This document shows positions 53,435 through 57,028 of a DNA stretch of 64,000 nt, one piece after another. The translations under genes and the position numbers were made by a program. The notes beneath the pieces were generated by a model that saw only the letters and a list, made by a program, of their open reading frames with translations, was not told the origin of the DNA and did no database searches. Location: positions 62,001-126,000 of the forward strand of contig PCAK01000033.1 of the NCBI GenBank assembly GCA_002730525.1. Direction: 5' to 3'. Positions within the stretch are counted from its first letter, which is position 1; every line of letters begins with the position of its first letter. The stretch is from Acidobacteriota bacterium (GTDB lineage: Bacteria; Acidobacteriota; Vicinamibacteria; Vicinamibacterales; UBA823).

Positions 53435-53494
53435 ATGACTTGCGTAGATGCGCCCCCTGTGCGACACGCGCCTAGTTTCTTCCGCCGCCGATGA
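53435..53494 (+). CDS. Possible 19-residue leader peptide coupled to the M16 peptidase
   Basis: ATG at 53435 opens a frame of 19 codons (MTCVDAPPVRHAPSFFRRR) that stops at TGA 53492-53494, overlapping the ATG of the peptidase gene (ATGA). Neither start has a good ribosome-binding site, so the peptidase may depend on translation of this leader. It is a prediction from arrangement only. Confidence 0.3.
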   Translation: MTCVDAPPVRHAPSFFRRR

Positions 53495-54768
53495 TCGTTC
53501 GCGAAACGTTTGACAACGGCCTCCGCCTGCTCACCGAGGCGATGCCGCATGTCCGCTCGATCAGTCTCGGCGTCTGGCTCGCTCGCGGATCCCGCCACGA
53601 AGACCCCGCGCAGTCGGGCATCTCCCACTTCATCGAGCACATGTTGTTCAAGGGCTCGACGTCACGTTCGGCCCAGGAGATCGCGCAGGCGATCGACTCG
53701 ATCGGAGGACAGGTCGACGCGTTCACCGCGAAGGAGTACGCCGGCTACTACGTCAAGGTGCTCGATGCGCACCTCGGAGCCGCGCTCGACATCCTGTCCG
53801 ACCTCGTGCTGCATCCGGCATTCCGTGAGGAGGAGATCGAGCGGGAGAAGAAGGTCGTTCTCGAAGAGATCAAGATGGTCGAGGACACGCCCGACGACCT
53901 GGTGCACGAACTGTTCACGCAGCAGTTCTGGACCGACCACGCCCTGGGCCGGCCGATTCTGGGGGTGCCCGACACCGTGTCGGCGTTCACGTCCAGCGCC
54001 CTGCAGACGTTCTTCGAGGAGGCGTATGTCGCCCCGAACGTGATCATCTCGGCGGCCGGAAATCTCGACCACGCGAGGCTGCGTGGCCTGGTCGCCGAGT
54101 CGTTCGCCGAACTGCCCGCGCACGGGGCGCCCGTGTCGTGGGTCCAGCCCGACGCGGCACCTCAGCTCCAGATCAGGGACAAGGAGCTGGAGCAGAGCCA
54201 CCTCTGCCTCGGCTCGGCCGCCTACCCTCAAGATCACCCGGATCGCTTCATCAGCTATCTCATGAACACGATGCTGGGGGACTCGATGAGTTCCCGCTTG
54301 TTTCAGCATATCCGCGAGGAACGCGGGCTGGCCTATGCCGTGTTCAGTGGGCTGACGGCGTATCGCGATACGGGGGCGCTGACGGTGTATGCAGGGTGTG
54401 CGAGCGACTCAGTCGAGCAGGTACTCGAGCTGGTCGTGGCCGAGATGCGGAACCTGGCTGGCACCGCGGTGCCGACGGAGGAGTTGCAGCGAGCGAAGGA
54501 TCACTTGAAAGGCAGCCTGATGCTGTCGCTGGAGAACACGGCCTCGCGGATGTCACACCTGGCTCGCCAGGAGCTCTACTTCGGCGAGCAGTCCGATCTG
54601 GACGAGATTCTCGAGAGCATCGATCGCGTGACGGTCGAGGACGTGCAGCGGGTGGGTCGGGATCTGCTGGCGGACGGCCCCCGGGCCGTCACCGTGCTGG
54701 GACCGTCGGCCGGGCTCGACTTGTCGGCCGAGCAGCTTGGGGTGGCCGTGGCGTCTACCGTCGAGTAA
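53491..54768 (+). CDS. M16 family zinc peptidase (processing-peptidase-like)
   Basis: 425 residues. The inverted zinc motif GISHFIEHMLFKGSTSRSAQ (H-x-x-E-H, about residues 50-54) and the downstream glutamate in EIEREKKVVLEEIKMVEDTP (about 126-130) complete the metal site. The C-terminal half is the inactive M16 repeat with HIREERGLAYAVFSGLTAY. Length fits the bacterial YmxG/mitochondrial processing peptidase-like group. The role is probably degradation of peptides or proteins. It lies at the head of a plus-strand run with a metallo-hydrolase and then purB. Confidence 0.93.
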   Translation: MIVRETFDNGLRLLTEAMPHVRSISLGVWLARGSRHEDPAQSGISHFIEHMLFKGSTSRSAQEIAQAIDSIGGQVDAFTAKEYAGYYVKVLDAHLGAALDILSDLVLHPAFREEEIEREKKVVLEEIKMVEDTPDDLVHELFTQQFWTDHALGRPILGVPDTVSAFTSSALQTFFEEAYVAPNVIISAAGNLDHARLRGLVAESFAELPAHGAPVSWVQPDAAPQLQIRDKELEQSHLCLGSAAYPQDHPDRFISYLMNTMLGDSMSSRLFQHIREERGLAYAVFSGLTAYRDTGALTVYAGCASDSVEQVLELVVAEMRNLAGTAVPTEELQRAKDHLKGSLMLSLENTASRMSHLARQELYFGEQSDLDEILESIDRVTVEDVQRVGRDLLADGPRAVTVLGPSAGLDLSAEQLGVAVASTVE

Positions 54769-54797
54769 GCGCCGGTTGGCCACTGGAGGATGAGGCA

Positions 54798-55661
54798 ATT
54801 TCGGTCGAACTGACAGTCCTCGGGAGCGGCAGCAGCGGGAATGCGACGCTCGTGGCGGCTGGCGACGATCGCGTGCTGATCGACGCCGGCCTCAGCTACC
54901 GCGCCCTGCGGCAGCGGCTGGACGGCGTCGGCGTCGATCCGGACACGCTGGGTGCGGTGCTCATCACCCACGCGCACGTCGACCACGTGCGCGGCGCGGC
55001 GATGCTGTCGAGAAAGCACGGGATTCCGATTCATGCGACCGGCGGAGCCCGCGAAGGTTGGGGGAGGGGAGCCGACAAGGTCGCTGGGTGGGAAGCGTTG
55101 CTGGCGGGGCGCCCGGTCGCCTTCGGTGCGTTGCGATTCATTCCGTTCGGCGTCAGTCATGACGCCGATGAGGCTCTGGGCTTTCGGATCGAAACGCCAG
55201 ACGGCGCGATCGGGTTCGCGACTGACGTGGGGCAGATCACCGACGATCTGGTGGCGCGGTTCTCCGACTGCCGGGTGCTGGTGGTGGAGTCGAATCACGC
55301 GGTCGAACTGCTCAGGGTCAGCCCGTATGCGCCAAGCGTCCGGATGCGCATCGGCGGCGATGGTGGGCATCTGTCGAACGAGGCGCTGGCCGGGTTCATT
55401 CGGGAGCATCTGGGCGCCCAGGTGCGGTGCATCGTCCTGGCGCACCTCAGCCGGACCAACAACGTGCCTGCGCTGGCCGAATTGATCTGCCGGGAGGCGT
55501 TGACCGCGGCGGGGCGCCCCGGTGTCAGGGTCGTAGTGGCGGGCCAGGACCAGCCCACGCCGACGATCGATCTGGCGGGGCTGGCGCCGGCGCCGGTGTC
55601 CCCCGTTCAGGCGGCGCAGCAGGTCTCACTGCCCTTCGGAGGCTCGTCAGCGCGAGCCTAG
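54798..55661 (+). CDS. MBL-fold metallo-hydrolase (WalJ/YycJ-like), apparent ATT start
   Basis: About 287 residues. The start SVELTVLGSGSSGNATLVAA and AVLITHAHVDHVRGAAMLSR (H-x-H-x-D-H) are the hallmarks of the WalJ branch of metallo-beta-lactamase-fold nucleases or phosphodiesterases. The reading frame has no ATG, GTG or TTG near its family-conserved beginning: residues line up with the usual Met at ATT 54798, with GGAGG at 54785-54789 eight bases upstream. A very rare ATT start, or an ATG-to-ATT error, is the best reading; CTG at 54783 is also possible. The start is 29 bases after the M16 stop. Confidence 0.82.
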   Translation: MSVELTVLGSGSSGNATLVAAGDDRVLIDAGLSYRALRQRLDGVGVDPDTLGAVLITHAHVDHVRGAAMLSRKHGIPIHATGGAREGWGRGADKVAGWEALLAGRPVAFGALRFIPFGVSHDADEALGFRIETPDGAIGFATDVGQITDDLVARFSDCRVLVVESNHAVELLRVSPYAPSVRMRIGGDGGHLSNEALAGFIREHLGAQVRCIVLAHLSRTNNVPALAELICREALTAAGRPGVRVVVAGQDQPTPTIDLAGLAPAPVSPVQAAQQVSLPFGGSSARA

Positions 55662-55708: not shown

Positions 55709-57028
55709 ATGATTTCGCGTTATACCCACCCCGACATGGGCCGCATCTGGACCGACCAGCGCCGGTACGAGACCTGGCTGCTCGTCGAGACGGCAGCCGC
55801 CGAGGCGATGGCGAAGGCCGGCCTGATCCCTGATGACGCGGCGCGCGACATTCGAGAACGCGGCGCCGTCGACGCGGCACGAGTCGACGAGATCGAAGCG
55901 ACGACTCAGCACGACGTGATTGCGTTCACGACCGCGGTCGCCGAACATGTCGGCGAGTCGGCGCGGTGGCTGCATTTCGGCCTGACGTCGTCGGACGTGA
56001 TCGATACCGCTCAGGCGCTCCAGATGCGCGAGGCGTGCGATCTGATCCTTCAGGGCCTCGACGCCGCGCTCGACGCCGTCCGGGCTCGCGCCGAAGAGCA
56101 TCGCGACACGCCGATGATCGGCAGGACCCACGGCGTGCACGCCGAGCCGATGACGTTCGGTCTGAAGCTGGCGCTCTGGCACGCCGAGCTGGTGCGCGAT
56201 CGGCTCCGCGTGAGCCGTGCGCGCGATGTGATCAGCGTCGGGAAGATCTCGGGCGCCGTCGGCACCTACGCACACCTCGATCCGGCGATCGAGGCTGACG
56301 TCTGCCAGCGGCTCGAACTCACCGCGGCGCCGGTCGCGTCGCAGGTGCTGCAGCGCGACCGCCACGCCGAGTTACTCACGGCGCTCGCGATCACCGCGGC
56401 GTCGATAGAGAAATTCGCGCTCGAGATTCGCGGCCTCCAGAAGACCGAGATCGGCGAGGTCCAGGAGCCGTTCGGCAAGGGGCAGAAGGGCTCATCGGCG
56501 ATGCCGCACAAGCGGAATCCGATCGGCTGCGAACAGTTGACCGGGCTGGCGCGACTGTTGCGCGCGAACGCCATGGCCGCGCTCGAGAACGTGGCGCTCT
56601 GGCACGAGCGCGACATCTCACACTCGTCCGTCGAGCGCGTGATCCTGCCGGACAGCTTCATTGCGCTCGACCATATGCTGCGGCGCTTCACGCGGATCGT
56701 GCGCGGGTTGGTCGTGAATCCCGAGCGGATGCGCGAGAATCTCGAGCGATCCCGCGGGGTCGTCTTCTCCGGCACCGTGCTGCTGGAACTCGCGCAGCGC
56801 GGCGTGTCGCGAGAGCAGGCCTACGAGTGGGTGCAACGCAACGCGATGCGGTCCTTCGACGAAGCAGCCGACTTCAAGGCCTTGTTGCTTGCCGATCGCG
56901 ACGTCGTGGCCGTGCTGCCGGCTGAGGTGATCGAGCAGGCGTTCGACTTGAAGATACAACTGCGGCACGTGGGCCGGATTTTCGAGCGAGTGTTCGGGGA
57001 CGGTGCCGGGCAGGGAGGAACGTCGTGA
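55709..57028 (+). CDS. purB: Adenylosuccinate lyase
   Basis: 439 residues from the ATG at 55709; the frame is open earlier but family sequence starts here ([20 protein letters not shown]). It has [60 protein letters not shown] and the signature [20 protein letters not shown], whose Ser is the catalytic acid/base. The enzyme splits succino-AICAR and adenylosuccinate with release of fumarate. The stop overlaps the purS start (GTGA). Confidence 0.97.

Follow-up and report, generated by a model that had tools for sequence, protein, structure and literature searches.

A conserved AUC/AUU start codon in a walJ-like metallo-hydrolase gene of Acidobacteriota, with probable control by IF3

Start site of the walJ-like gene

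At which codon does translation of the walJ-like gene in this genome begin, and why would a weak codon be kept there? The question arises from the window, the whole stretch of DNA analysed (64,000 nucleotides), which is part of a draft MAG whose closest named relative is Acidobacteria MAG UBA2161, at 85% protein identity. The initial annotation had proposed an AUU start at 54798, with GGAGG 8 nt upstream and no in-frame ATG, GTG or TTG nearby, and this is borne out by the relatives, in which AUC/AUU is conserved, in-frame stops lie just upstream and the Shine-Dalgarno (SD) sequence is strong. In the window sequence ATT is followed by TCG GTC GAA CTG (SVEL), the conserved N-terminus reading SVELTVLGSGSSGN, and in-frame ATG, GTG and TTG are absent from codons -133 to 18 around it. 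The nearest upstream in-frame NUG in the window is 134 codons ahead of ATT and the first downstream NUG common to the window and its closest relative is GTG at codon 19, inside the fold. The AF2 model (pLDDT 88.3) places the first strand at residues 3-9, and thus the frame from ATT yields the whole fold; initiation at codon 19 would remove this strand. Two further features did not figure in the initial annotation, namely an in-frame CTG at 54783, which shares bases with the SD and reads CCG in the closest relative, and the out-of-frame ATG at 54790. Features of the locus are collected in Table 1.

Table 1. Positions of the walJ-like gene, its initiation signals and its neighbours in the window
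Feature	Position	Strand	Remarks
walJ/yycJ-like metallo-hydrolase gene	54798..55661	+	AUU start to stop, 287 residues; MBL-fold Pfam matches; AF2 model
ATT start codon	54798..54800	+	ATC/ATT in 25/30 orthologues
SD GGAGG	54785..54789	+	8-nt spacer to ATT; leader duplex energy -9.3 kcal/mol
Out-of-frame 7-codon frame, ATG to TGA	54790..54813	+	Abuts SD, overlaps walJ start; probably incidental
Upstream gene	53491..54768	+	Stop 29 nt before ATT; homologue in 30/30 loci, gap 12-299 nt
Downstream gene, ATG start	55709..57028	+	Homologue in 29/30 loci

The walJ-like gene is present in 6/9 genomes of the window's own family (f1) and in 24/28 of a second family of the order (f9); a profile search detected it in 31 of 162 genomes of the order. 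These 30 orthologues form the start-codon set, the distant 31st, G132 of another family, being kept outside the counts. Comparison of the start codon in close relatives, the check that the initial annotation had named, returned ATC or ATT in 25 of the 30, the codon at the ATT position being ATC in 22, ATT in 3, ATG in 3, ACG in 1 and CGG in 1. Conservation starts past this codon and the preceding codons are not conserved. Between the window's genome and a close relative (G001), the 66 nt preceding the codon contain 6/5/3 substitutions at the three codon positions and the following 66 nt contain 2/1/8, a pattern indicating that coding constraint begins at ATT. Among the 25 AUC/AUU loci, 12 are devoid of any NUG between the upstream in-frame stop and the AUC/AUU codon. 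Taken from sequence comparison, AUU/AUC as the walJ start is well supported.

The true start could be elsewhere, at an upstream NUG, at the CTG at 54783 or at a later TTG or GTG, in which case the conserved isoleucine codon would be internal. Some genomes do have a NUG upstream or at codon +4, and the window has its in-frame CTG; we nevertheless judge a displaced start very improbable. In L008, L039 and L043 an in-frame stop is located 5-6 codons upstream, leaving a gap which holds little beyond the SD and spacer and no NUG, and the NUG places are not shared, upstream positions varying from genome to genome. Codon +4 is variously CTG, TTG, CTA, TTA, CTC, GTG or a CTG preceded by CGT, so that it provides no shared NUG start. 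The CTG at 54783 is CCG in the closest relative (L003) and the SD spacing suits the AUH codon. Other starts, a frameshift and an upstream extension were ruled out by the in-frame stops and the absent conservation.

Sequencing or assembly error at 54798, whether a misreading of ATG as ATT or the loss of a base that put the ATG at 54790 out of frame, would be an obvious concern for a window taken from a draft MAG with an out-of-frame ATG close by. However, independent assemblies of other species carry ATT or ATC at the same place and the out-of-frame ATG is missing in most relatives, making such an error scarcely conceivable; for the clade as a whole it is refuted by the relatives' codons. An ATG at this position in 3 of the 30 orthologues shows that the weak start is dispensable, a point against the IF3 control proposed below.

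In 7 of the 25 AUC/AUU loci (the window, L003, L007, L046, L047, L049 and L050) a NUG directly next to the SD, out of frame with walJ, begins a frame of 6-7 codons, which runs across the walJ start and ends 13 nt past the first base of walJ. This short frame may be a decoy or an accident. In L009 (G016) the walJ leader lacks the ATC codon, apparently through a short deletion relative to L047 (G075) of the same genus. Gene finders that allow ATG, GTG and TTG alone will mis-start the walJ-like gene.

SD strength and start codons of other genes

Duplex energy of the SD ranges from -6.9 to -12.0 kcal/mol in the 25 AUC/AUU walJ genes, with a mean of -9.9 kcal/mol. For 33 window genes whose start, chosen by eye, is shared with G001, the median is -2.6, with 4/33 at -9 or below, and the median of the 67 NUG-started relatives elsewhere in the phylum is -4.3. 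The three ATG orthologues have almost no SD (-2.5 to -3.5) and constitute one clade (support 100/99) inside the focal group, in a tree of 30 focal and 11 chosen outgroup rows in which the focal rows are one clade (100/100). Weak codon thus accompanies strong SD, and a single return to AUG accompanies SD loss, one event which is only suggestive. A pattern search of the window's draft genome did not find the 16S 3'-end (anti-SD) pattern; near matches with CACCTCCTT, candidate 16S 3' ends, are present in 3/12 related genomes.

infC, the gene for IF3, was found in 27 of the 32 genomes queried. Of its 28 loci 24 were counted, leaving out the divergent L207 and the broken L213-L215. Every counted locus (24/24, among L188-L212 and from both families) has a weak start, with ATT in 8, ATC in 12, ATA in 3 and ACG in 1, and an SD of -7.6 to -12.6; start position was set by sequence pattern and in L198 an adjacent ATT is also possible. 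The class of weak codon is kept in infC and the codon itself is variable. The window genome's own infC is located at G000:C5 near 133590.

In E. coli pcnB, a gene for a nucleic-acid enzyme and in this respect like the walJ-like gene, also starts with AUU. The initial annotation had drawn an analogy with infC and pcnB, and the two halves fared differently: infC has weak starts throughout the same genomes, whereas pcnB of the focal clade, in contrast to that of E. coli, starts with ATG or GTG in 16/18 loci (a sample of 20 loci minus L294 and L295), L282 being unreadable. L291 (G054) perhaps has a CTG start behind GGAGG, where the other pcnB loci have ATG or GTG.

A scan of stretches of G000, the window's genome, and G001 covered 121 conserved, non-overlapping frames common to both, wrong frames included. 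No shared NUG was found in the first 36 columns of 22 of the 121 frames, and within these 22, walJ and infC alone share a weak codon that is preceded in both genomes by a strong SD. The other 20, judged by eye, look like wrong frames, contig edges, alignments starting inside a gene or frames with a slightly later NUG. Clade-wide laxity of start codon choice is ruled out by the shared NUG starts of 33 window genes, the 121-frame scan and pcnB.

With a dedicated initiator tRNA reading AUC/AUU, the codon would not count as weak in this clade. No point supporting it was found, and among the CAU tRNAs typed only L334 carries what we take to be initiator marks (C1:A72, and an anticodon stem with three G:C pairs). 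An initiator-like GAU tRNA is absent from the typed tRNAs, an incomplete set in that 10 of the 45 hits, all of 84-91 nt, are untyped and no tRNA-Ile(GAU) appeared. We give such a tRNA next to no credence.

These data also bear on the alternative that AUU/AUC is a real start and a nearly neutral tuning of expression, a weak codon with a strong SD giving about the output of AUG with a weak SD and IF3 having no role. The ATG clade without an SD fits plain compensation without regulation, and PMC5622118 reports that weak starts tend to carry stronger SDs. Against this, AUC/AUU is kept over two families, in 22 + 3 genomes, infC, a known IF3 target, has the same pattern, and a switch from AUG to AUU is very rare (1 of 61,358; PMC5622118). 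We consider neutral tuning unlikely, although the most credible of the alternatives to control by IF3.

The protein, its neighbours and proposed control by IF3

The product contains THAHVDH, an HxHxDH metal motif, and its Pfam matches are Lactamase_B_2 and Lactamase_B. The model matches MBL structures at a TM of about 0.66; both the fold search and a PDB sequence search gave the general MBL fold only, and no NCBIfam model scored above its cut-off for the walJ-like protein. Identity to ten Bacilli or Erysipelotrichaceae loci is 29-34% over most of the length. Bacilli WalJ/YycJ resembles the walJ-like protein in being of MBL type and in the THAHVDH motif. The Bacilli genes differ in having an ATG start in the six loci read and in being followed, in six Bacilli-type loci, by what we take to be an RlmH-like gene, whereas the AUU-started window gene is flanked upstream by a gene whose family features presumably make it an M16-type peptidase and downstream by one we take to be purB-like. 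The walRKHIJ operon context, a trait of Bacilli, is thus absent and the gene is called walJ-like. Where the gap is short, walJ may be coupled to the upstream gene, but this gives no general explanation of the weak start.

WalJ of B. subtilis is listed as a 5'-3' exonuclease, and for its mutant the relative survival listed after replication arrest is 2.89 (PMC9836290). In the sources consulted (PMC9836290; a title cited in PMC4801191) this activity is known from Bacilli only. By analogy with these distant relatives, the Acidobacteria protein is a likely nuclease.

In the reading we hold most likely, translation of walJ starts with fMet at AUU/AUC and would be repressed by IF3, as are infC and Streptomyces sigR. 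We infer weak initiation, IF3 repression and a benefit of scarcity along the following lines. The ordinary initiator fMet-tRNA(CAU) would translate the walJ-like gene from AUU, or AUC in most relatives, aided by the strong SD. The third codon base would mispair with the anticodon, so that IF3 would destabilise the initiation complex. WalJ synthesis would consequently be low and, like expression of infC, would increase once free IF3 runs short. The benefit would be that a probable nuclease is kept scarce, and the reason may be its activity. The suggestion in the initial annotation of a gene held at low expression or sensitive to IF3 agrees with the sequence data and with the published behaviour of weak starts.

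Published work (PMC5472188) describes IF3 repression of non-NUG starts, gives the infC start as ATT for E. coli and as ATC for Streptomyces, covers the control of infC by IF3 in E. coli, and reports for Streptomyces sigR a conserved GTC start (GTT in 2/34 species), a strong SD and IF3 repression. Raising the IF3 level in vitro lowers the full-length share obtained with AUU when it is read by CAU (PMC10158994). The walJ-like gene resembles infC of the same genomes in its conserved AUU/AUC start and strong SD; infC differs in feeding back on itself, whereas walJ would be a plain target. It resembles sigR as a non-infC gene with a conserved non-NUG start, a strong SD and a third base that is C or T between species. 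It differs in codon (ATC/ATT rather than GTC/GTT), in gene and in phylum, and the IF3 effect was shown for sigR while for walJ it is presumed.

In the open-access literature searched, no paper was found on a non-NUG walJ start or on such starts in Acidobacteria. To our knowledge, non-NUG starts are retained in very few bacterial genes. The walJ-like gene is such a case besides infC; its start is conserved across two families, whose genomes also have the weak infC start, and it constitutes a natural test of the purpose of such codons, for which the ATG genus is a ready comparison to the AUC/AUU species.

walJ-like starts elsewhere in the phylum

Relatives of the walJ-like gene were found in 282 of 396 genomes drawn from the phylum. 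Outside f1 and f9, 82 loci were read, of which L182 (a match near a contig edge at the wrong offset) was removed, leaving 81. A NUG is present near the expected start in 67 of these, the codon chosen being ATG in 47, GTG in 12 and TTG in 8. The remaining 14/81 are without a near NUG (three with CTG in f57, one with CTG in f33, six in f56, two in f89, one with ATC in f73 and one with ATA in f75), a fraction which is not a rate, since the loci are a non-random draw from the 278 hits outside both families, consisting of the best-scoring hits and one per family followed by extras of odd-looking families.

L242 (f57) and L177 (f33) have no NUG between the upstream stop and the core. These data hint that weak walJ starts arose repeatedly in the phylum. 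A broader proposition, which we put forward tentatively and regard as possible rather than probable, is that in these Acidobacteriota IF3 governs a small set of genes, at least infC and walJ, so that the amount of a DNA-repair-type nuclease would be tied to the state of translation initiation, and that weak walJ starts evolved on more than one occasion in the phylum (AUC/AUU in f1 and f9, CUG in f57 and f33, AUC in f73 and AUA in f75).

L177, L186, L242, L244, L233 and L256 are walJ-like genes seemingly starting with CTG, ATC or ATA and having no near NUG. The six f56 and two f89 loci may have longer N-termini instead of weak starts. In L230 and L238-L241 of f56, the reading frame ahead of walJ stays open and is conserved, with RESKL-like residues. 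It contains a NUG at 40-41 codons from the core, as though the protein were longer at its N-terminus or joined to another gene.
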